A DNA stretch of 64,000 nt, taken from Candidatus Omnitrophota bacterium. Lineage in GTDB: Bacteria; Hinthialibacterota; Hinthialibacteria; Hinthialibacterales; Hinthialibacteraceae. The stretch is taken from assembly GCA_016934335.1 (NCBI GenBank), contig JAFGTC010000130.1:1-64000 (forward strand). Reading direction: 5' to 3'. The notes below the pieces were generated by a model, which made no database searches, was not told the origin of the DNA, and was given only the letters and a program-made list of their open reading frames with translations. Within the stretch, counting starts at the first letter, position 1. Each line of letters begins with the position of its first letter. Position numbers and translations under genes: made by a program. Below, piece after piece: positions 2,605 to 14,896 of this stretch.

Positions 2605-3801
2605 ATGACAAGACAACTGCGAGAATTCATCTTTTATTGTTTCAATCAAATCAGCGTTGAACTGCAAAGCGAGAGCATGCTTTCGCTGGCGGAGCGAAAG
2701 ACCGGCTTGAACGATTGGGGGAATCTGGCATTTCGCGAACCGCTGGATGTTTTGTTGGAAGCGCTGCGACGGGAAGCGAAACTGAGCCAAAGGGGGAGGT
2801 TTGTTGTTGCGCAGCATTACATGCGCCTGTTGTGCAATATTTTAAAAATCGTGGATGATTGGAAGCGGCATCCGGAAATTGCGCATGTTCCTGTTGAGGC
2901 GCCTATTGTGATTTTAGGCTTCCCTCGAACAGGGACGACTTATTTGCACAGCCTGCTCAGCCGGGATCCAGCGTTTCGAACTATGCAATATTGGGAACTT
3001 TTGTTTCCCTCTCCGCCCCCCGATCCGGCCGCGCACCGACAGGATCCCCGAAAGAGACAGGCGCGGCGGTTTGCGTTTTTTATCGGAAAGATTTCACCGA
3101 AACTATCCGCGATTCATGAATTGTCGGCGGAGGCGGTTGAAGAGTGCTGCTTTATTTTTGATCACTTTTTTCTGGATAACATACATCATCTGGTTTTCGA
3201 CATCCCCTCGTATATCGAATGGTATGACAAACACGACGCACTTCCTTCCTACCGGTTTCATCGCCGCATGCTGCAGTATTACGGCTGGAAATTTTCGTTC
3301 GAGCGATATGCGCTGAAAGCGCCCCGGCATCTGTTCTGCTTGAAGGATTTGCTGGCCGTTTATCCCGGCGCCATGATCGTATGGACGCATCGCAATCCAG
3401 AATCGGCTCTGCCTTCGTTGTGCAGTCTAAGTGAAACCGCCCGGCGCATCATCTCGGATGACATCGACAACCGGCGCATCGGTCGACTTTGCCTGGATCA
3501 TTTCGATAAGGATTTTAAGGCGGGCTGGGCGGCGCGAAAAAATTTCGCTCCCGGGCAATTTTATGACGTCCCCTATCGAGAACTGGTACACGATCCCATT
3601 GGCGTCGTCCAGAAGATTTACCGGCATTTCAATTTATCCTATACCGAGGAACTGGACGCCAATCTGTGCGAATCAATCAGCCATGCTAAAAAACAGCCGC
3701 GTGAGAAGCACCGATATTCGTTAGAACAATTCGGGCTGCATCGCGATGCGATTCACGAGCGCCTTCGTGATTATTATGACCATTTCGGGAAATATTGCTG
3801 A
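2605..3801 (+). CDS. Sulfotransferase family protein (PAPS-dependent)
   Basis: Transfers sulfate from 3'-phosphoadenylyl sulfate to an acceptor that cannot be told from the sequence, probably a glycan or lipid given the neighbours. The 5'-phosphosulfate loop GFPRTGTTYLHSLL lies at residues 105-118. A second conserved segment, VWTHRNPESALPSLCSL, fits the 3'-phosphate-binding region with a helical R/S pair. The ORF track begins at a TTG (2548). The in-frame ATG at 2605 gives the more natural N terminus (MTRQLREF) and a 398-residue protein. It is the first gene of eight same-strand genes reaching to 13057, so it is likely part of a surface glycan or glycolipid operon. Confidence 0.85.
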   Translation: MTRQLREFIFYCFNQISVELQSESMLSLAERKTGLNDWGNLAFREPLDVLLEALRREAKLSQRGRFVVAQHYMRLLCNILKIVDDWKRHPEIAHVPVEAPIVILGFPRTGTTYLHSLLSRDPAFRTMQYWELLFPSPPPDPAAHRQDPRKRQARRFAFFIGKISPKLSAIHELSAEAVEECCFIFDHFFLDNIHHLVFDIPSYIEWYDKHDALPSYRFHRRMLQYYGWKFSFERYALKAPRHLFCLKDLLAVYPGAMIVWTHRNPESALPSLCSLSETARRIISDDIDNRRIGRLCLDHFDKDFKAGWAARKNFAPGQFYDVPYRELVHDPIGVVQKIYRHFNLSYTEELDANLCESISHAKKQPREKHRYSLEQFGLHRDAIHERLRDYYDHFGKYC

Positions 3802-3872
3802 GATGATGAATCTCGCAGACGCCTCTATTATTTTTTATTCTTAAAAGAACTAAGAGGAGTAGGGAATTCTCA

Positions 3873-5216
3873 ATGCAGCCGGATGCTTCTGAAGATATCA
3901 GATCGATTATTGATAAAGCGCGTTTGGCGGGTGAAAACGGACGGGTAGAAGAGGTCGGCCGTTTGCTGGAAGACTCGTTGAGCAAGAATCCCGAATCCGC
4001 GGAACTGATGGCGCATCTTGGATATTATTATTATCGGCGTGGACGAGGCGGCCGCGCGCTGGCCGTTTTTCTCCGCCGCAACGATCTGATCGAGCCGGAT
4101 GCGGGAATCTGCCGGATTCTCGCCGAACTCTATTCTAAGCGAGGGGAGTATACAAAGCAGCGTTTTTGGATGAAGCAAGCCCATTGGCAGGATCCGCAAA
4201 AAACATATGCGATACTGCTTCTTTACAGTTTCTTCAAGCAATTTTTTTCCTCCATTCGCCGCCGCTGTGCGCATTCAAATATTCTGCGCCGCTGCGCGTA
4301 TATTTTTCTTTGTTTGCAGGAAAAGTTTTCGCGGGGCGTCATTTATATTTTCGAAAAATTCATTCCTTCCCGGATGTATCCGGAATCGGGCGACGACTCG
4401 TTTCGCATGACTGAATTTCTGAGATTCGCTCGAGATTTTGACGCTCTCTATCGACGCGATGGACTCGCTTTCCATAAAGTTCGTGAAATTCTGATCGCGA
4501 CGCGCAATTTACCTGTCGCAAACCGTCAAGCAAATCTTCTTGACGTCGGTACGGGATTAAACACGGCCCCGTTGTTTTGGGCCATGAAGGGATCGTGCGT
4601 AACTGCCTTTGATGGTTCGATATACGGGTTCTCGCATCTAAAAAAAGTTCAGGAGAAGATATCCCAAGAAAATAATTCTATCCGTTTTCATTGCGTCGCG
4701 GGAGACGGCGCGCTGCTTCCATTTCAAGACGATGCTTTCGATGGAGCATCGGCGCTTTGCATGCTCGAACATATCCCTGAAGACGGCGACATCCATTGCA
4801 TGCAAGAGATGTTCCGAACGCTCAAGCCGGGCGGGTTGGCGGTTGTTACGGTGGAAGCCAATTCATGTTCAAAAGACGGCTGGCTCGAAGTCCCCTATGC
4901 CATAGGATTTCAAAGCGGGACGGATAAACCCGTGCAAGAGCGCGGCGGTTATGAGGAAGTCTACTGCCGGAATTATTCACCCGATGATATGATCGAACGC
5001 CTGGCGCGCTCCCGGCCTTGGGAGGTTGTTCAATCGGGATTTTATGACGATCGCGTTCTGCCCATGCGCAGGCGGCTTGCCCCGACTCATATATTCTCGC
5101 CTTTCCTGCGGGGGATGCAGCCGCTTCTTTCCCTGCTGTTTTTCCGCCCCGCTGCGCCGGATAAAAGCCTTTCTCCATCCAGCATCGGGTATCTCATACT
5201 TCGCAAGCCGCTGTAA
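3873..5216 (+). CDS. TPR-like N terminus fused to class I SAM-dependent methyltransferase
   Basis: Residues 8-105 look like two or three TPR-type helical hairpins (PESAELMAHLGYYYYRRGRGGRA). A hydrophobic and basic stretch at 115-165 follows. The methyltransferase domain starts near 220 with motif I LLDVGTGLN, then LPFQDDAFDGASALCMLEHI and the post-motif LKPGGLAVVTVEAN, typical of Methyltransf_11. Acceptor unknown. The ATG has a strong ribosome-binding site (AAGAGGAGTAGGG). The gap to the sulfotransferase is 71 bp, so co-transcription is likely. The N-terminal TPRs may dock the enzyme onto partners. That part is inference. Confidence 0.8.
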   Translation: MQPDASEDIRSIIDKARLAGENGRVEEVGRLLEDSLSKNPESAELMAHLGYYYYRRGRGGRALAVFLRRNDLIEPDAGICRILAELYSKRGEYTKQRFWMKQAHWQDPQKTYAILLLYSFFKQFFSSIRRRCAHSNILRRCAYIFLCLQEKFSRGVIYIFEKFIPSRMYPESGDDSFRMTEFLRFARDFDALYRRDGLAFHKVREILIATRNLPVANRQANLLDVGTGLNTAPLFWAMKGSCVTAFDGSIYGFSHLKKVQEKISQENNSIRFHCVAGDGALLPFQDDAFDGASALCMLEHIPEDGDIHCMQEMFRTLKPGGLAVVTVEANSCSKDGWLEVPYAIGFQSGTDKPVQERGGYEEVYCRNYSPDDMIERLARSRPWEVVQSGFYDDRVLPMRRRLAPTHIFSPFLRGMQPLLSLLFFRPAAPDKSLSPSSIGYLILRKPL

Positions 5217-5297
5217 AATCTTGTTAAAAGGCATCTCTTTCCAGTTGGATTCGTAGAATTTGAAAGTATGATCACTCGATAGAGCTGTAGAGTAGAA

Positions 5298-6071
5298 ATG
5301 GAACAAACAATGCCTGAAAAATCGCGGGATATTATGGACATTCAGCCAAAGTTATCCATCATTATCCCGATCTATAATGAAGAAAGACTGCTGCCCGAAG
5401 TACTGCAGCGCATTCGCTCCCTCGAATGGGCCAACCGGGAAATCATTCTGGTCAACGACTGTTCGACCGATACAACCGAAGCCATTCTCGAACCGGAAAA
5501 GAAGAAATCCGATACGGTTGTTTTGACTCATTCCGAGAATCTCGGTAAAGGCGCCGCCATCCGGACGGGATTGCGCTATGTAACGGGAGACATCGTTATC
5601 ATTCAAGACGCCGACATGGAGTATGATCCGGCGGAAATTGTGCGGGTCATTGAACCGATCGCCCAGGGAGAAGTGAAGGTTTGCTTTGGATCGCGCTTCA
5701 TGGGATCCGTCAAAGACATGCGCTTGCCCAACCGGGTGGGCAACTGGCTGCTGGCCCAGATGGTTTCATGGCTTTTCGGCCAGCGCATTACCGACGAAGC
5801 GACCGCCTACAAGGCGTTTCACCGATCGGTCATCGACCGAATTCCTTTGGAGTGTCATGGATTTGAGTTCTGCCCCGAAGTGACCAGCAAAGTGTTGAAG
5901 TTGCGATACAAAATTCTGGAAGTGCCTGTCACTTTTAAGGCGCGAACCGTGGCGGAAGGCAAGAAGATCGGCTGGCGCGATTTTATTGTCGCCGTCTGGA
6001 CTATATTAAAGGTGCGTCTGTTTTGGAGTCCGAAGAAGGCCACGCCGGCGATCATTCCATCGAAGCAATGA
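5298..6071 (+). CDS. Glycosyltransferase family 2 (dolichyl-phosphate-mannose-synthase-like)
   Basis: GT-A fold inverting transferase acting at the cytoplasmic face of the membrane. It shows the start LSIIIPIYNEERLLPEVL, the nucleotide-binding VNDCSTDTTEAIL, the NLGKGAAIRTGL segment and the metal-binding QDADMEYDP. This pattern belongs to the DPM1/DPG-synthase-like branch that loads a sugar onto a polyprenyl phosphate or starts a glycan. It lacks the C-terminal membrane helices of GtrB-type enzymes (257 aa). Its stop overlaps the next start (ATGA at 6068-6071), which suggests translational coupling to the FAD oxidoreductase and hence a shared pathway. Confidence 0.88.
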   Translation: MEQTMPEKSRDIMDIQPKLSIIIPIYNEERLLPEVLQRIRSLEWANREIILVNDCSTDTTEAILEPEKKKSDTVVLTHSENLGKGAAIRTGLRYVTGDIVIIQDADMEYDPAEIVRVIEPIAQGEVKVCFGSRFMGSVKDMRLPNRVGNWLLAQMVSWLFGQRITDEATAYKAFHRSVIDRIPLECHGFEFCPEVTSKVLKLRYKILEVPVTFKARTVAEGKKIGWRDFIVAVWTILKVRLFWSPKKATPAIIPSKQ

Positions 6072-7474
6072 ATGAGAATCGAAAAAAAATCGTTATTTTG
6101 GGCGCGGGCGCAGCCGGACTGTCCGCCGCATGGAAGCTGCTGCGCGAAGATCCCCGCCTGCATGTCGTTCTCATCGAGCGGGATCCGCTTCCCGGCGGAT
6201 TGGCCAAAAGCATTTCATGGAAGGGCTATGCGCTCGATTTGGGGCCGCACCGTTTTTATACGGAAATCCCTGAAGTTAAACAATTCATCAAATCCTTCTG
6301 CGAAGAGCGCATGATTCAAGTGACGCGCGCCAGCCGCATGTATCTTAACGGCCGCTATATTCCTTATCCGATCAAGCCGCTGCCGACGTTTCAGGCATTG
6401 GGATTGTCGAATACTCTATCTTTTTCCTTATCTGCATTGCGCGTCTTGTGGAATAAGCAATCTGACGCGGAGTCTTACGAAGATTACGTCATCGGATACT
6501 ATGGGGAAAAACTCTACCGGCGGATCTTTCAACCCTACGCCGAAAAAGTGTGGGGAATTCCCGCGGCTCAAATTACCGCTGAAACCGCGCGCGTGCGGCT
6601 GCGCGGCGAAAATATTTGGCATTCGCTGAAAGACGGATTGTTGTCCAAGCATGAAACCTATGTCGCGAAATTTCTTTATCCGCCCGGAGGCATCGGCGAC
6701 ATTCCACAGCAATTCGCGCAGGAAATCATCCGAGACGGAGGCGAGATCAAAATCAATCATGAGGTTACGGGCGTATCGCTGAATGACGGGCGCGTTCATG
6801 AGGTGGAAGTCTCCGGCCCGCAAGGCGTTCAAAAACTCGCATGCGATATATTGATCAATACGGCTCCTCTGCCCCAATTCGCCGAATTGATGCGGCCCGT
6901 GCCTCCCGCGGACATTCTATCGGCGTCCGCTTCCTTGCATTATCGAGCGATTACGCTGCTTTACTTGCAGTATGATGAAGACTTGAACATCAACGATACG
7001 TGGCTTTATTTTCCTGAGGAGCATGTTCCTTTTTCACGGATTTATGTTCCGGACAATTTCGCGCCGCACAAAAAACAGCCGGGAAAGACGTGTTTGTGCG
7101 TGGAATTCCCCTGCGACGTCGAATCGGATCTTTGGCGAATGGACGCTTTCCAACTAGCGGATCTGGCCGATCGTATATTGGCGCCGAGCGGCTTGATTCA
7201 TCGTCGCAGCATCGACGCCCTCGTCGTTCGTATTAAGGAAGGATATCCTTTATATGAAATTGGTTACGAGCATCGTGTTAACAAGACGCTTGAATATATT
7301 CGCTCCATGGGGAATTGCCTGACCACCGGCCGCCAAGGACTGTTCCGGCATAACAATCTGGATCAATCCCTGCAGATGGGCCTGCAGGTCGCCGAGCATG
7401 TTCTTGAACAGAAAGACAGCGATTCATGGTATGACAATATCGACCGGTACAAAGATTATCGAATTGTCGATTAA
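6068..7474 (+). CDS. FAD-dependent amine-oxidase / UDP-galactopyranose-mutase-like oxidoreductase
   Basis: The Rossmann FAD-binding start IVILGAGAAGLSAAWKL and the PGGLAKS segment mark the amine-oxidase / protoporphyrinogen-oxidase / UDP-galactopyranose-mutase superfamily. The following LDLGPHRFYTE is typical of a branch often found beside GT2 and methyltransferase genes in glycolipid clusters. The C terminus has the second FAD contact region (LTTGRQGLFRHNNLDQSLQMGL). I would not call it HemY: there is no haem context, and the substrate is probably a sugar or lipid (inference). The ORF track starts at 6023. The ATG at 6068, overlapping the GT2 stop, is preferred because it puts the GxGxxG motif at the usual N-terminal distance. 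Confidence 0.82.
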   Translation: MNENRKKIVILGAGAAGLSAAWKLLREDPRLHVVLIERDPLPGGLAKSISWKGYALDLGPHRFYTEIPEVKQFIKSFCEERMIQVTRASRMYLNGRYIPYPIKPLPTFQALGLSNTLSFSLSALRVLWNKQSDAESYEDYVIGYYGEKLYRRIFQPYAEKVWGIPAAQITAETARVRLRGENIWHSLKDGLLSKHETYVAKFLYPPGGIGDIPQQFAQEIIRDGGEIKINHEVTGVSLNDGRVHEVEVSGPQGVQKLACDILINTAPLPQFAELMRPVPPADILSASASLHYRAITLLYLQYDEDLNINDTWLYFPEEHVPFSRIYVPDNFAPHKKQPGKTCLCVEFPCDVESDLWRMDAFQLADLADRILAPSGLIHRRSIDALVVRIKEGYPLYEIGYEHRVNKTLEYIRSMGNCLTTGRQGLFRHNNLDQSLQMGLQVAEHVLEQKDSDSWYDNIDRYKDYRIVD

Positions 7475-7553
7475 TGAGTCATGAACCGCTCGCAGGCTGA
7501 CTTTGAATTTACAAAATAGGGCGAAGGCCGTTTTATGAAGGAAGGAAATTAAG

Positions 7554-8981
7554 GTGGCATTACAAAGGCCCTGGAAAAAAGCATTGCTTGTCGTTCCTCC
7601 TACGGGTAAATACATCCGAGAGGAGCGATGCCAAACTCCCCTGGACGAACTCCACACGGTTGCTCTTCGCCCGCCCATGGATCTTCTCTATATCGCCGGC
7701 GCTTTAGAGCAGATCGGCGTTCAAGCGAAAATTGTCGACTATCCCGCCCAAGAGGGCGCCTGGGAATCATTCGAGAACGACGTGCGCGGCTTCCAGCCGG
7801 ACGCGCTGATTCTATCCATCACAACGCCGACGCTTGAAGAGGATGTCAAAGCGGCGGCGAAGGCCAAGTCCATTGATCCGGAAATCGTCACTCTCAGCAA
7901 AGGCGCTCATTTTCTTCATCTCGATCGTCAGGCCATGCGGCGGCATTCTCAACTTGATCTGGTCATGCGCGGCGAATATGAGGAGACGGTCAAGGAACTG
8001 GCGTCGGGAAAGTCGTGGAGCGATATTCCAGGCATTACGTATCGGGAGAACACGGATATCACTCGCAATGAAGATCGGCCATTCATTCAAGATATTGATG
8101 CCATCGCTTTTCCCGCGCGCCATCTAATAGATAACGATCGCTATCGCCGGCCGGACACCGGCGAACCGCAAGCCACGATTGTCACCAGCCGGGGCTGCCC
8201 GTATCCCTGCATATACTGCCTGGCGCGCGCGGTCTCAGGCGCAGCGGTTCGCAACCGCTCGCCGGAAAATGTGGCGGCGGAGTTGAAGGAATGCATCGAG
8301 AAGCACGGCATTCGGGATTTTCTTTTCCGCTCCGATTTGTTTACAGCCAACAAACGATGGGTTCTTTCGCTATGTAAAGCCATCCAGGATGCCAGACTCG
8401 ACATCCAATGGTCATGCAACAGCCGGGTTGATACGCTCAATGAAGAAATGCTGGCCGAAATGAAAAAAGCGGGATGCTGGCTGATCGCTTTTGGCGTCGA
8501 GCACGGCGACCCGGTTATGCTGGAATTGATGCGCAAGCAGGTCAAATACGAGAATATCGAACCGGCCATCCACATGTGCCGGAAAGCGGGAATCAAAAGC
8601 AGCGTCTATTTTCTCATCGGCCTGCCTTGGGAAAGCCGGCAGACCTTCGAAAAAACCAAATCGTTTGCGCGCAAGTTGGATCCCGATTTCATCGAATTTT
8701 TCTATACGTATCCGTTTTACGGCACGGAATATTATGAAGAAGCCGTAAAAGAACAATTATTGCAGGAAGGCGAACTGCCCAAAATCGGCTACAATCAACC
8801 GGCGATACCGACCAAATATCTGACGATCGATGAATTGAAGCCATTGCGCAAAGAGGCGCTTCGCTCTTTTTATCTTCGCCCGCGTTATATCATTCGCACT
8901 CTGGCGGCCAATCCGTCTCCAAAGGTTTTGTTCAACTATTTCCGATACGGAATCCGTCAATTATGGGATTTATTGACTTGA
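7554..8981 (+). CDS. B12-binding-domain radical SAM protein (class B type)
   Basis: Residues 8-155 form a cobalamin-binding Rossmann-like domain (PPMDLLYIAGALEQIGVQAKIVDY). The radical SAM domain follows, with the cluster motif CPYPCIYC (C215, C219, C222, CX3CX2C) in RGCPYPCIYCLARA. The C-terminal tail with FYLRPRYIIR is shared with the second radical SAM enzyme at 10325. Enzymes of this architecture methylate unreactive carbons or rearrange lipids, hopanoids, antibiotics and tetrapyrroles (for example HpnJ/HpnR/BchE types). The start is GTG at 7554, behind GAAGGAAATTAAG. It probably acts in the same pathway as the flanking glycosyltransferases and FAD enzyme. Substrate unknown. Confidence 0.88.
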   Translation: MALQRPWKKALLVVPPTGKYIREERCQTPLDELHTVALRPPMDLLYIAGALEQIGVQAKIVDYPAQEGAWESFENDVRGFQPDALILSITTPTLEEDVKAAAKAKSIDPEIVTLSKGAHFLHLDRQAMRRHSQLDLVMRGEYEETVKELASGKSWSDIPGITYRENTDITRNEDRPFIQDIDAIAFPARHLIDNDRYRRPDTGEPQATIVTSRGCPYPCIYCLARAVSGAAVRNRSPENVAAELKECIEKHGIRDFLFRSDLFTANKRWVLSLCKAIQDARLDIQWSCNSRVDTLNEEMLAEMKKAGCWLIAFGVEHGDPVMLELMRKQVKYENIEPAIHMCRKAGIKSSVYFLIGLPWESRQTFEKTKSFARKLDPDFIEFFYTYPFYGTEYYEEAVKEQLLQEGELPKIGYNQPAIPTKYLTIDELKPLRKEALRSFYLRPRYIIRTLAANPSPKVLFNYFRYGIRQLWDLLT

Positions 8982-9039
8982 TTTTTTTGTATATATGAGA
9001 GAGATCGTTTTCTTATCAAGGGAGAAAGAGGAGATATTC

Positions 9040-10248
9040 ATGAATCGCCGAATGGTTTATTTTATGGCAGTTTTGTGCGTCTTTAGTTTATGCCGGAGCA
9101 GTTCGTTTTCGGCGGAAGCGCCCGCCTCTTCAATCAGTGAACCTTTTTTTGACGTGCGCGGCGGCGTTGATAACTGCCGGATCAAGTTTATGCAGCAAAA
9201 AACAGGGCGCATCGCTTATCTGGGAGGCTCCATCACAACCATGAAGGGGTGGCGCGAATTAACGTACGATCTCTTCAAAAAACGATTTCCTGAAACGAAT
9301 TTTGAATTCATCGATGCGGGCATCGGGGGAACCAATTCCACTCTCGGAGCATTTCGGTTTGAAGAAGATGCGTTCAAAAATGGGCCGGTGGATTTATTGT
9401 TTCTCGAATTTGCAGTGAACGACGGCGGCGGCGACTCTCCCGACAACCGCCGCATGCGCGCGATGGAAGGCATTGTTCGACGCGCCCGGCGCTTGAATCC
9501 CAAAATCGACGTCATCATGCAGTATTTTATTCATCAGGGGCAAATTCAAGAAATCAATCAAGGCAAAACGCCGGCCGCGATTCTCGATCATGATAAAGTC
9601 GCAAAACATTACAACATCCCCATCATTAATCTCTCACAGGAAATGACGCGCCGCCTGAATGCAGGCGAATTTACGTGGGATCAATTCTCACGCGACAGCT
9701 GCCACCCCAGTCCATTTGGACACGAACAATATCTTCAATGCATTGAAGCTTTTCTTGACGCCGCTTGGAAGAAGCCCATTGCGCCGGATGAAGAGATGCA
9801 GACTTATCCGACGCCGGCCCCGCTGGATTCCATGAATTATGAAAACGGCCGCTTTGTTAATGTAAGACAAACGCTGAGCATCCAAGGTTGGAAACTGGTG
9901 GAGGGATGGAAAGCCGAAAAGACCTGCAACTATGGCGGCCCGGTCGATGTTTATACGGCGGAACAACCCGGGGATGAACTGAAACTTGTATTCGAAGGCA
10001 GCTTGATCGGCATCTACGCCATCGCTGGATTCGACGCCGGCATTTTGGAGTATTCGATCGATCATGGAGAGGCTCAGACGCTCGACCTGTTCGATTATTA
10101 CTGCACACAGTTTCATCGCCCCGTCTGCCGCATACTCGCCGAAAACCTGACGGCCGGCCGGCATGAGATTACAATTCGTATGAAGAAGGACAAGAATGAG
10201 AAAAGCACCGGCCACGCCTGCCGGATTTTGAAATGGGCGGTTAATTAG
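9040..10248 (+). CDS. Secreted SGNH/GDSL-family hydrolase with C-terminal beta-sandwich-like region
   Basis: A signal peptide (MNRRMVYFMAVLCVFSLC...SFSA) is followed by an SGNH esterase domain: block I YLGGSITTMKGW (nucleophile Ser), block II Gly/Asn region AGIGGTNST, block III EFAVNDGGG, and block V DSCHPSPFGHEQY (DxxH). The last 130 residues look like a separate beta-rich domain. Such proteins deacetylate or de-esterify carbohydrates outside the cell. The ORF track starts at 8995. The ATG at 9040, with GGAGAAAGAGGAG just upstream and a signal peptide directly after it, is the better start. It lies in the middle of the glycan operon, so it may trim acyl groups from the product (inference). 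Confidence 0.82.
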   Translation: MNRRMVYFMAVLCVFSLCRSSSFSAEAPASSISEPFFDVRGGVDNCRIKFMQQKTGRIAYLGGSITTMKGWRELTYDLFKKRFPETNFEFIDAGIGGTNSTLGAFRFEEDAFKNGPVDLLFLEFAVNDGGGDSPDNRRMRAMEGIVRRARRLNPKIDVIMQYFIHQGQIQEINQGKTPAAILDHDKVAKHYNIPIINLSQEMTRRLNAGEFTWDQFSRDSCHPSPFGHEQYLQCIEAFLDAAWKKPIAPDEEMQTYPTPAPLDSMNYENGRFVNVRQTLSIQGWKLVEGWKAEKTCNYGGPVDVYTAEQPGDELKLVFEGSLIGIYAIAGFDAGILEYSIDHGEAQTLDLFDYYCTQFHRPVCRILAENLTAGRHEITIRMKKDKNEKSTGHACRILKWAVN

Positions 10249-10324
10249 AAATTTTAAGAAAATGCACCATAAGAAAAGATCAATCCTGATTCGAAATCAA
10301 TCCTGATGAAATCGAAGACGAATT

Positions 10325-11767
10325 ATGCGAGTTTTATTACTGAATCCTCCCGGCGATAAGCCGTATCTGCGCGACTATTATTGCAGCCACACCGCCAAAG
10401 GATATTATTATTGGCATCCCTACGATCTTGTCGTGCAGAGCGGCATTTTATCAAGATGCCATGAAGTCGAGTATCTTGACGCCATCGTGAACAAAATGAG
10501 CCGCAAGAGCGCGGCGGCTAAGATCAAAGCCATTCAGCCCGAAGCGATTGTTTTCTTGAGCGGCGGCGTCAGTTGGAGGCAGGATTTCGATTTTTTGGAA
10601 AGCCTGGACATCCCCCAAAATATTCCCGTTCTCGGCACCGGCGACGTGTTGGTCAGCAAGGGCAGGGAACTGATGACCAAGCATTCGTGGCTTTCCGGCG
10701 TATTGCTCGATTTTACATCCGACTCGATTGATACCTTCCTGAACGCCTGGGATCGCCGCACCGGGCAAATCGATTTGGACGGCGACGTCCCCAATTTGCT
10801 GTATCGGAAAGACAGTGAATTCATCCGAGGCGTCGATCCGGGGAAGCGCTATTACTCGTTCCCTATTCCGCGCTACGATCTGCTGCCTCTGCGGAAATAT
10901 CGCATCCCGCACGGGCGGCGAAAGTTGTTCGCTTCGTTTTTAACCGATTTCGGCTGCCCCTATCACTGTTCATTCTGTTTTAACGGCAAGTGGGATCATA
11001 AACTGCGCGATCTCGACAACGCCATGCAGGAACTGCGGTACGTCCGAGAGATCGGGATTCGCGAATTGTGGATCAAAGATTTGACGTTCGGCGTCAATCG
11101 CAAACATTCCACTGAATTCCTCCATCGCTTGATTCAAGAGAACCTGCGCTTCGATTGGATCACTTTGTCGCGCGTGGACGTCATGGATGAAGAACTTTTG
11201 TCTCTCATGGCCAGGGCGGGATGTCATACCATTCAGTTTGGCGTGGAATCCGCCGATCCGGGAATCCTCAATTCCATCGAGAAAGGCATTCAGCCGGCGC
11301 GAGTCATGGAAATTTTTCGCCTGTGCCGAAAACTGCGAATTCGAACGCTGGCGCACTTCATCCTCGGCTTGCCCGGAGAAACCGAAGAAACCGCCCTTCG
11401 CACCATCGAATACGCCAAAGATTTAGATCCCGATTTTATTTCGTTCAACGTAGCCGCGCCGCGCATGGGTACCGATCTGCGCTCCGAAGCCATTCGTCAA
11501 GGCTGGGTGGATAAAGACGTCGATTCGGTTGACAACTCGACTTTTCTGCCTCAAATGGAAATCAACAGCATTTCCGGGCGGCGCGTCGTCGAACTACGCA
11601 ACAAGGCCATCCGCGAATTTCATCTGCGACCCTCGTATTTATGCCGAAAAGCCGCCGATATTCGCTCTCCGCGAGAATTCTGGCGGGCTTTGCAGAACGG
11701 TTATACGCTGATTAAATCGACGCTGTACAAACCAACCATCGAGGAAATAATGGATGGTGAAATGTGA
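10325..11767 (+). CDS. B12-binding-domain radical SAM protein, second copy
   Basis: Same architecture as the gene at 7554: cobalamin-binding region at residues 1-170, radical SAM motif CPYHCSFC (C211, C215, C218), TIM-barrel segments (IQFGVESADPGILNSIEKGI, HFILGLPGETEETAL), and a C-terminal tail with FHLRPSYLCRKAA that lines up with FYLRPRYIIRTLA of its neighbour. The two are paralogues and likely act in successive steps. The N-terminal region is divergent and lacks a DxHxxG motif, as is common in this class, so base-off His-off cobalamin binding is assumed rather than seen. The ATG at 10325 starts with a clean beta strand (MRVLLLNPPG). Confidence 0.86.
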   Translation: MRVLLLNPPGDKPYLRDYYCSHTAKGYYYWHPYDLVVQSGILSRCHEVEYLDAIVNKMSRKSAAAKIKAIQPEAIVFLSGGVSWRQDFDFLESLDIPQNIPVLGTGDVLVSKGRELMTKHSWLSGVLLDFTSDSIDTFLNAWDRRTGQIDLDGDVPNLLYRKDSEFIRGVDPGKRYYSFPIPRYDLLPLRKYRIPHGRRKLFASFLTDFGCPYHCSFCFNGKWDHKLRDLDNAMQELRYVREIGIRELWIKDLTFGVNRKHSTEFLHRLIQENLRFDWITLSRVDVMDEELLSLMARAGCHTIQFGVESADPGILNSIEKGIQPARVMEIFRLCRKLRIRTLAHFILGLPGETEETALRTIEYAKDLDPDFISFNVAAPRMGTDLRSEAIRQGWVDKDVDSVDNSTFLPQMEINSISGRRVVELRNKAIREFHLRPSYLCRKAADIRSPREFWRALQNGYTLIKSTLYKPTIEEIMDGEM

Positions 11768-11866
11768 ATTTTATTGCGAGATCTACGCTCGATTTTAAAA
11801 TTCGATTTCTGATAGAATGAAACAGTTCCATGCGGCCATTCATTGGATCCATTATTAAGAGAAATT

Positions 11867-13057
11867 ATGAAGATTTTATTCATAACACCATGTGTTCCAA
11901 CAGCTTCTGATGGAAGGAGACCTTTTAATTTCCTTCGCTATCTCGCGCCGCGTCATGAAATTCATTTGTTATGCATGAAACTGCCCTCTCAAACGCCGGA
12001 CGACATCCGCCGCATTCAGGAAATGGGCGTTCGCGTCATGACGGTGGAATACGAAAAATCGCGATCTCTTTTCAATTGTCTCCGCGGCGCCGCCGCGGCT
12101 CGACCTTTGCGCGTTTCCTGGTGTCAGTCTTTAGAGTTTCGCTCGGCTCTCGAAAAGACGCTTGAGCATCGCCGTTTTGATCTTGTCCATATCGACCGCA
12201 TGCGCATGGGGCAGTACGCGCCGATAATCTCATCCCCCAAACTGGTTGATTTTACAGACTCTCTAACTCTTTATCTAGAACGATCTTTAACTCACCGGCG
12301 CAAACTTGGACAGCGTATGATCGATGCATGGGAGTTGCGGACGATTCCTCGCTTTGAACGCTGGCTGCTTCCCCGAATCGACGCCGCATTGGTTTGTTCC
12401 GAAGTCGATGCGGCGGAATTCAGAAAATGGCATCCAAAATATCAATTCGATGTCATCGAAAACGCCGTCGACAGCGACCAATACAAACCCAAATCACACC
12501 GGCCAAATCATGAAGCCCGCTGCGTGCTGACCGGTACGTTGTTTTATTTCGCCAATGTTGACAGCGTGCTGTATTACCATGATGAAATTCTCCCTCCACT
12601 TCGAAAATTATTTCCCAATTTGGAGACGCATGTGATCGGGGCGCGTCCAGTCCACGAAATCCGTAAATTGAACGAACGCCATGGCATTCAAGTATTCGCC
12701 GATATTCCAGATATGGCCGATTATCTCTATCAAGACGATATTTACTTATGTCCTTTACGGGTGGCGGCCGGCGTGCGCAACAAGCTGCTGGAAGCCATGT
12801 CGGCCGGAATGCCGATCGTCACCACTCGCCTGGGAGTGGAGGGCATGTCGGTGCAGGATGATCGCGAAGTGCTTTTCGCCGAAACGCCCCGAGAGTTTTG
12901 CGATTGCGTGCAGCGTCTGAAGGCCTCGCCGCCGCTGCGCCAAAAACTCGCTGAAAACGGGCGAGCGTATGTTCAGAAGAATCATTGTCTTGAAATACTG
13001 GGCAGTAAATTAGAAGATCTGTACGATCGAATGGTGAAGGAATCTGCGAACGCATAA
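11867..13057 (+). CDS. Glycosyltransferase family 4 (resembles TIGR03087-type, EpsH-associated)
   Basis: GT-B retaining glycosyltransferase. The N terminus MKILFITPCVPTASDGRRPFN, the HIDRMRMGQY segment and the C-terminal donor-site region RNKLLEAMSAGMPIVTTRLGVEGM are typical of group 1 transferases. The opening resembles the transferase family associated with PEP-CTERM/EpsH exopolysaccharide loci, although neither exosortase nor PEP-CTERM proteins occur here. The ORF track begins at a TTG (11843). The ATG at 11867 places the first beta strand at the N terminus. It is the last gene of the cluster, followed by a convergent helicase gene 42 bp away. Confidence 0.86.
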   Translation: MKILFITPCVPTASDGRRPFNFLRYLAPRHEIHLLCMKLPSQTPDDIRRIQEMGVRVMTVEYEKSRSLFNCLRGAAAARPLRVSWCQSLEFRSALEKTLEHRRFDLVHIDRMRMGQYAPIISSPKLVDFTDSLTLYLERSLTHRRKLGQRMIDAWELRTIPRFERWLLPRIDAALVCSEVDAAEFRKWHPKYQFDVIENAVDSDQYKPKSHRPNHEARCVLTGTLFYFANVDSVLYYHDEILPPLRKLFPNLETHVIGARPVHEIRKLNERHGIQVFADIPDMADYLYQDDIYLCPLRVAAGVRNKLLEAMSAGMPIVTTRLGVEGMSVQDDREVLFAETPREFCDCVQRLKASPPLRQKLAENGRAYVQKNHCLEILGSKLEDLYDRMVKESANA

Positions 13058-13099: not shown

Positions 13100-14896
13100 T
13101 TATTTCTTTGATTCGACTTTGGCGAACGCTTCCTTCAGCAATGACTGCAGTCCTGTATGACGGGCGCGTATTCGATTATTGCGGACGGCCATTTGCAGCG
13201 CGCGCTGTTCTCCCACTAATACGACCAGTTTTTTGCCGCGGCTGACGGCGGTGTACAACAAGTTGCGCTGCAGCATGGGGAAATGCTGCATAACCAGCGG
13301 CGCCACCACCGCCGGATATTCGCTGCCCTGCGACTTGTGAACCGTCACTGCATAAGCCAGTGTCGTATTGTCGAGTTCATGCCGCTCATATACGACGCTC
13401 TTTCCCTCGAAATTGATGGTAGCTGTGTTATTTTTGGCGTCGATTTCCCAGACATAACCGATGTCCCCATTGAAGACATCCTTTGAATAATCGTTTTTGG
13501 TCTGCATGATCTTGTCGCCGGGCGACAGAGAATAAAACGGCGCTTTATAGCGGCTTTCCGCGGAATTCAGCGATTCCTGCAAAATGGCATTCATCGCCTC
13601 CACTCCCACGTCTTTTTTTATCATCGGACACAAAACCTGCACGTCTTCTTTGGGATCGAAACCGAACTGCAGGGGAATTCGCTGGGTCACCATTTCGACG
13701 ATCGCCTCCCGAACGCCGAGAGGCGTCGGCCGATTGATGAAAAAGAAATCTTGTCCCTCGTCGACGCCGCCGCTGTTCATCTCGGGCATCTCGCCTTGAT
13801 TGATCTTTTGCGCATTGATCGAGATTAAACTGCCTTCGTCCTGCCGGAAAATCTGCGACAGGCGAATCGTACATAAACATTCGCTTTCGATCAGATCGTG
13901 GAGTACGAATCCCGGCCCGACGGCGGGAAGTTGATCGACGTCGCCCACTAAAAGCAGATGGCAGGACGACGGCAGCGCTTCCAGGAGAGACGCCATTAAC
14001 GCCGTGTCGATCATGGACGATTCGTCCACCACCATCAAATCGACTCGCAGAGGGCGTTTGGAATTTCGTTTAAACATGGATATTTCGGGATCGTACTCCA
14101 ACAGCCGGTGAAGCGTGAAGGCCTGCCGGCCGGTGCTTTCCGATAAACGTTTGGCGGCTCGTCCGGTCGGGGCGGCCAATTTGATGCGCGCGCCTCGCTG
14201 CTTCCAGAGTCGCAAGACTCCGCGGACGATGGTGGTTTTGCCGGTTCCCGGACCGCCGGTAATGACAACCAGTTTATGGGTCAGCGAAGCGACGATCGCG
14301 TCCCGCTGGGCGGGGGCTAAATCGATGCGAAGGTCTCGCTCGACGTGATCGAGTTCCTCTTGAGCCGGCGCTTGCAGCGCCATACTCGACGCGGAAGCGT
14401 GCATCTCGGCGAAGCGGCGGGCGATTTGCGTTTCGGCCAAATAAAGATCGCGCAAATAGACGGACGAATCTTCCGCCGAGGACGCTTTCCGCATCATCAA
14501 TTCGCGATTATGCAGCATGGAGTGCATGGCGTCTTCCCACTGATCTTCCTGGATCATTCGTATCAATCGCGCCGTTTTTTGTTGTAATTCGCCCAAAGGC
14601 AGAAAAACATGACCGTCATTCATGGAGGACAATAACGCATATCGGATGCCGCCGCTGATTCGCTCCGGCGACGATTCGGCTATTCCCAATTGCAGCGCCA
14701 GGCGATCCAATTCCATCCACTTGATTGACGAATTTAAAAACAACGCGGAGTACGGATCCTGCCGCAAAACATCCAACGCGGAAGAGCCCCACTGACTATA
14801 CGCCTGGCCGGCCACTGTCTTGCTCCAACCCAGGCGCATTAAATCCTGAACAATATTTCTTCTTGTACGAGCCATGCTTGTTTCATTCGCTTCCAT
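13100..14896 (-). CDS. RecD-like superfamily 1B DNA helicase (RecD2/YrrC-like, short form)
   Basis: ATP-driven 5'-3' helicase of the RecD2 type, acting in DNA repair independently of RecBC. The helix-hairpin-helix-like region (DVLRQDPYSALF, then GIRYALLSSMNDGHVFLP) occupies residues 1-110. Walker A GGPGTGKTT is at 214-222, the adjacent motif is APTGRAAKRLSE, Walker B is VVDESSMID, and the C-terminal UvrD_C_2 part contains AVTVHKSQGSEYPAV and YTAVSRGKK. At 598 aa it is shorter than typical RecD2 (over 700) and lacks the N-terminal OB-like domain. An alternative start is the ATG at residue 8 (14875). Confidence 0.88.
   Translation of the reverse strand: MEANETSMARTRRNIVQDLMRLGWSKTVAGQAYSQWGSSALDVLRQDPYSALFLNSSIKWMELDRLALQLGIAESSPERISGGIRYALLSSMNDGHVFLPLGELQQKTARLIRMIQEDQWEDAMHSMLHNRELMMRKASSAEDSSVYLRDLYLAETQIARRFAEMHASASSMALQAPAQEELDHVERDLRIDLAPAQRDAIVASLTHKLVVITGGPGTGKTTIVRGVLRLWKQRGARIKLAAPTGRAAKRLSESTGRQAFTLHRLLEYDPEISMFKRNSKRPLRVDLMVVDESSMIDTALMASLLEALPSSCHLLLVGDVDQLPAVGPGFVLHDLIESECLCTIRLSQIFRQDEGSLISINAQKINQGEMPEMNSGGVDEGQDFFFINRPTPLGVREAIVEMVTQRIPLQFGFDPKEDVQVLCPMIKKDVGVEAMNAILQESLNSAESRYKAPFYSLSPGDKIMQTKNDYSKDVFNGDIGYVWEIDAKNNTATINFEGKSVVYERHELDNTTLAYAVTVHKSQGSEYPAVVAPLVMQHFPMLQRNLLYTAVSRGKKLVVLVGEQRALQMAVRNNRIRARHTGLQSLLKEAFAKVESKK

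Follow-up and report, generated by a model that had tools for sequence, protein, structure and literature searches.

A conserved glycosyltransferase, flavoenzyme and radical SAM gene core in Hinthialibacterota and its possible role in remodelling carrier-lipid sugars

The 64,000-nucleotide stretch analysed here (the window; contig JAFGTC010000130.1) belongs to a contig of 64.7 kb, in a draft genome of 5.96 Mb. Its host is of the Hinthialibacterota type; among named genomes, the closest are 'Candidatus Omnitrophota' MAGs and Ca. Hinthialibacteria OLB16. Open reading frame (ORF) calls on the window give eight genes at 2605-13057, all on the + strand (Table 1). Those encoding a GT2 glycosyltransferase, a flavin adenine dinucleotide (FAD) enzyme and two radical S-adenosylmethionine (SAM) proteins, rSAM1 and rSAM2, are referred to as the core. 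The intergenic distances are, in gene order, 71, 81, -4, 79, 13, 76 and 75 bp; the negative value is the ATGA shared by the GT2 and FAD genes (6068-6071). The original prediction, made from the sequence alone, was correct in describing this overlap and a one-directional set with gaps below 100 bp (13-81 bp). This layout suggests that the eight genes may form an operon. The block is ended by a convergent RecD2 helicase gene (13100-14896). A thioredoxin/TlpA-like gene (1869-2531, + strand) lies 73 bp upstream of the block and could share its transcript.

Table 1. Genes of the eight-gene block, with their assignment, their status in the comparison of related genomes and the supporting matches
Gene	Assignment	Status	Positions	Strand	Match
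Sulfotransferase	Sulfotransfer_3	lineage-specific passenger	2605..3801	+	Pfam PF13469 2.8e-43
Methyltransferase	TPR plus class I SAM methyltransferase (Methyltransf_11)	optional member	3873..5216	+	Pfam
GT2	DPM-synthase/AglJ-like polyprenyl-phosphate glycosyltransferase (putative)	core	5298..6071	+	TIGR04182 117 bits, below cutoff
FAD enzyme	Amino_oxidase/UDP-galactopyranose-mutase-like (PRK07208 group)	core	6068..7474	+	Pfam and UDP-galactopyranose mutase profile match
rSAM1	class-B-type radical SAM (B12-binding fold plus CxxxCxxC)	core	7554..8981	+	PF02310 6e-13, PF04055 8e-25
GDSL	GDSL esterase/lipase	lineage-specific insertion between rSAM1 and rSAM2	8995..10248	+	PF13472 1.9e-15
rSAM2	second radical SAM protein	core	10325..11767	+	PF04055
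GT4	TIGR03087-like glycosyltransferase	optional member	11843..13057	+	TIGR03087 194 bits, cutoff 317

The window's genome was compared with five other genomes of the same family (genomes are numbered G, loci L, contigs C and families f). GT2, FAD and rSAM1 are contiguous in all six. The rSAM2 gene directly follows rSAM1 in four of the five relatives and lies 25 kb off in the fifth (G005); in the window, the GDSL gene separates the two. GT2 is 76-79% and rSAM1 68-73% identical across the same-family genomes. Sister families retain FAD-rSAM1-rSAM2, with the GT2 gene elsewhere in part of the recurrences. Family f4 adds to FAD-rSAM1-rSAM2 a TPR protein and a third radical SAM protein, rSAM3, whose identity to rSAM1 is about 42%; the genome of the window carries rSAM3 and a TPR gene on a separate contig (L034). 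In UBA6127, GT2 and FAD form an isolated pair on another contig (L134), rSAM1-rSAM2 being located elsewhere. The arrangement also recurs in a second phylum, Sumerlaeota, as GT2-FAD-rSAM1-rSAM2-TPR (L061), FAD-rSAM1-rSAM2 (L067) or rSAM1-rSAM2-TPR (L053). GT2 identity is 60-64% in L061, L133 and L134, and the FAD protein is present in all 18 genomes tested. At L133 (9704-11091; G011, family f5), the rSAM1 gene beside GT2-FAD is broken into three overlapping ORFs, which suggests gene decay or an assembly error.

The remaining genes behave differently. Homologues of the sulfotransferase (2/5 same-family relatives) and of the GDSL protein (3/5) always lie on other contigs than the core, so that their linkage to it is found in the window only; the eight genes can therefore not be treated as a single conserved pathway. 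The methyltransferase gene is adjacent to the core in two relatives (L023, L024), at a distance of about 3 kb in L025 and not near it in L021 and L022; GT4 is near the core in L023 and L024 only (2/5). Judged by gene conservation, GT2, the FAD enzyme, rSAM1 and rSAM2 are the core and the other four genes are local add-ons. Scattering in related genomes had been named beforehand as an outcome that would count against the operon; it is seen for sulfotransferase and GDSL and partly for methyltransferase and GT4, and GT2-FAD-rSAM1-rSAM2 escapes it.

The closest matches of GT2 in the PDB are dolichol-phosphate mannose (DPM) synthase (5mlz, 2.9e-20) and an ArnC-type enzyme (9hwj, 8.7e-19). Its GT-A domain is nearest to DPM/ArnC-type enzymes, as used here to define a polyprenyl-phosphate GT2. 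GT2 thus resembles polyprenyl-phosphate sugar synthases, and activity on polyprenyl phosphate is predicted.

The FAD protein matches, over its whole length, the eukaryotic-type UDP-galactopyranose mutase (UGM) of Aspergillus fumigatus (profile match, E 1e-43). Residues R176, R323, Y313 and Y392, invariant in the alignment of FAD proteins (A3), pair with R185, R330, Y320 and Y422 of the UGM chain (tag offset 3), i.e., with A. fumigatus R182, R327, Y317 and Y419, which we take to be catalytic. The aligned arginines and tyrosines are kept, but one tyrosine is replaced by a histidine in the window protein, and the similarity is distant: the protein scores 40 bits against the UGM model TIGR00031, whose cutoff is 304. 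By these comparisons, the FAD enzyme is UGM-like and is not a UGM.

Both radical SAM proteins carry an invariant CxxxCxxC cluster motif (C215/C219/C222 in rSAM1; C211/C215/C218 in rSAM2, alignment A2). The AlphaFold2 model of rSAM1 (pLDDT 92) has AprD4 as its best Foldseek match (TM-score 0.78-0.82) and also matches MgmA, TsrM and OxsB, all cobalamin radical SAM enzymes. The model of rSAM2 (pLDDT 82) likewise matches AprD4 best, over its full length (TM-score 0.72-0.76), and TsrM. Both proteins have the motif of class B enzymes and, in the models, an N-terminal B12-binding fold, and cobalamin use is predicted for both. All eight genes were assigned by Pfam to the families originally named, and the description of two B12 radical SAM enzymes holds directly for rSAM1; for rSAM2, which has no Pfam B12-binding match, it depends on the structural match. 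AprD4, the radical SAM diol dehydratase of apramycin biosynthesis (PDB 6fd2), acts on a sugar, paromamine, together with AprD3 (PMC5461906). In sequence profile as well as in fold, AprD4 is the best match of rSAM1 and of rSAM2 along their full length; identity is only 22-26%, and the scores against the AprD4 model NF033070 (rSAM1, 156 bits; rSAM2, 95 bits) are far below its cutoff of 500. Furthermore, the AprD3 reductase partner is not encoded in the cluster, and the substrate of AprD4 is a soluble aminoglycoside.

Among NCBIfam models, HpnJ (TIGR03471) fits both radical SAM proteins best. In the pathway by which HpnI, HpnK and HpnJ form bacteriohopanetetrol cyclitol ether, a GT2 and a radical SAM enzyme also act on a lipid-linked sugar (PMC12583986). 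The cluster could accordingly specify a hopanoid head group, GT2 glycosylating bacteriohopanetetrol and rSAM1 contracting the sugar to a cyclitol ether. A squalene-hopene cyclase is indeed present in the window's genome. The HpnJ scores (rSAM1, 239 bits; rSAM2, 141 bits) are however well short of the cutoff of 577.6, GT2 has no HpnI match in NCBIfam, and the cluster contains no deacetylase (Pfam) and no HpnK. Squalene-hopene cyclase is over the cutoff in only 8 of the 28 rSAM1 holders; it was not found in the other Hinthialibacterota families tested, including sister families with the same core. The hopanoid role was rejected as very improbable because the cyclase is missing from 20/28 rSAM1 holders and because the scores fall so far below those of HpnJ. 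Two cyclase genes of the window's genome are over the cutoff (G000:C55:30983-32869 and C117:10049-11812); the latter is interrupted by an internal stop.

Sulfation and esterases are common on polysaccharides, and GT4 resembles TIGR03087. It is therefore conceivable that the genes form an exopolysaccharide cluster, with GT4, sulfotransferase, methyltransferase and GDSL esterase at its centre and the radical SAM enzymes C-methylating a polysaccharide sugar; the class B radical SAM methylases GenK and GenD1 do act on sugars (PMC5461906). The tailoring genes are nevertheless not conserved with the core, the nearest fold is that of a dehydratase and not of a methylase, and no exosortase is found in this genome, so that this explanation is considered unlikely. 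A PEP-CTERM/exosortase link, prompted by the TIGR03087 model, was ruled out by the same absence.

When named genomes were scanned, 80 loci of the rSAM1 family came up; they lie in Sumerlaeota, Planctomycetota/Brocadia, Nitrospirota, Melainabacteria, one Woesearchaeote and others. In the tree, Hinthialibacterota and Sumerlaeota rSAM1 group together (99% SH-aLRT); a Nitrospirota clade and a mixed clade with Planctomycetota are set apart, and rSAM3 is separate. Among 301 genes located at most two genes from rSAM1-family members, 16 encode a DPM-like GT2 and 14 a UbiA protein resembling decaprenyl-phosphate phosphoribosyltransferase (DPPR synthase), vs one of each among 581 genes located at least four genes away, a statistic weakened by the choice of these families after the neighbours had been viewed. 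The GT2 and UbiA pairings fall in separate clades. The UbiA neighbours in L104 and L097 are above NCBIfam decaprenyl-phosphate phosphoribosyltransferase cutoffs (L104 for one of two such models), and the neighbour in Woesearchaeota is PMT_2. The rSAM1 family thus repeatedly adjoins genes for polyprenyl-phosphate sugars: a DPM-like GT2 or, in anammox-type Planctomycetota, a decaprenyl-phosphate phosphoribosyltransferase. The latter enzyme recalls the mycobacterial decaprenylphosphoryl-pentose pathway (UbiA/DPPR synthase, DprE1/DprE2); the window core differs in carrying GT2 instead of UbiA. To our knowledge, the mycobacterial pathway includes no radical SAM enzyme.

We propose, with about even confidence, that the core builds a polyprenyl-phosphate-linked sugar at the cytoplasmic membrane and alters it by radical chemistry. 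This proposal is based on the contiguity of GT2-FAD-rSAM1 in the family; on the recurrence of FAD-rSAM1-rSAM2 in sister families and of the block, whole or in part, in Sumerlaeota; on the GT2-FAD pair being kept even where rSAM1-rSAM2 lie elsewhere (L134); on the DPM-like GT2, UbiA and PMT_2 neighbours in separate clades; on the likeness of GT2 to DPM synthase and of the FAD enzyme to UGM, with active-site residues kept; and on the AprD4 and HpnJ matches of both radical SAM proteins. GT2, as its family suggests, would move a sugar from a nucleotide donor to polyprenyl phosphate. The FAD enzyme, judging from its conserved residues, may isomerise the sugar on its nucleotide or lipid carrier in a UGM-like manner, the reduced flavin acting at the anomeric carbon. 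The two AprD4/HpnJ-type enzymes would, from their fold and relatives, take a hydrogen from the sugar, with dehydration, rearrangement of the ring or some other C-H change as the outcome. The finished unit would be handed to a glycan or glycolipid. In some relatives, the core would also take in the TPR protein and rSAM3; in this genome, the product may be further decorated by the optional methyltransferase, sulfotransferase, GT4 and GDSL esterase. The glycolipid or glycan pathway with radical chemistry first suggested for the cluster fits this proposal and is narrowed by it to polyprenyl-phosphate-linked sugars. The suggested methylation is not better supported than dehydration or rearrangement, since both radical enzymes find their closest structural counterpart in AprD4, a sugar dehydratase.

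Several points, besides the late choice of the families counted, weigh against the proposal. What is observed is the content and conservation of the genes, their neighbours and the protein folds, and from these the substrate, chemistry and product are inferred. In Sumerlaeota, rSAM1 mostly has neither GT2 nor UbiA beside it; in the loci checked there, it adjoins GTP cyclohydrolase I (FolE; L082) or SAM synthetase (MetK; L056 and L028), and gene sizes suggest the same neighbours in other Sumerlaeota. The Planctomycetota and Nitrospirota rSAM1 homologues are only 41-45% identical, like the rSAM3 paralogues, and may differ in function. A large multi-transmembrane neighbour in Nitrospirota was considered as a GT-C enzyme; Pfam and PDB gave no confirmation, its only kin is a protein at L076, and it was not used as evidence. 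It could also be that rSAM1 and rSAM2 belong to separate pathways (rSAM1, for example, to a pterin or SAM-linked reaction) and that the cluster reflects co-regulation without a common product. Besides the FolE and MetK neighbours, this would account for Sumerlaeota genomes, G025 and G063 among them, in which rSAM1 and FAD lie apart, for the distant rSAM2 of G005 and for G025 lacking rSAM2 at the threshold used. Against this, the order GT2-FAD-rSAM1(-rSAM2) persists among family members whose proteins are 54-80% identical, and it recurs in another phylum; separate pathways are given a low probability.

A wider and more tentative claim is that an undescribed, widespread radical SAM family converts polyprenyl-phosphate-linked sugars into a carrier-lipid sugar of deoxy, branched or carbocyclic type. 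The family would work beside a UGM-like partner in Hinthialibacterota and Sumerlaeota and beside DPPR synthase in anammox-type Planctomycetota, and would also serve Nitrospirota and some archaea. Were this so, bacteria, anammox relatives among them, would have in the radical alteration of carrier-lipid sugars a new route to unusual cell-surface sugars, and a so far uncharacterised radical SAM family, present in many uncultured phyla, would gain a function; polyprenyl-phosphate sugars would allow a direct test. In the open literature (subscription journals were outside the search), the term sets used brought up no paper linking radical SAM enzymes to polyprenyl, decaprenyl or dolichol phosphate or to UGM, and the novelty of the system is provisional.

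Two gene-calling artefacts were allowed for: an ORF in L029 that overlaps rSAM1, and an ORF in L073. In the window's own genome, a 219-aa ORF adjoining rSAM3 (L034:9473-10132, contig C97) matches only the C-terminal part of GcpE/IspG (PF04551); ORFs of like size, compared by size only, occupy the same position in L036 and L037.

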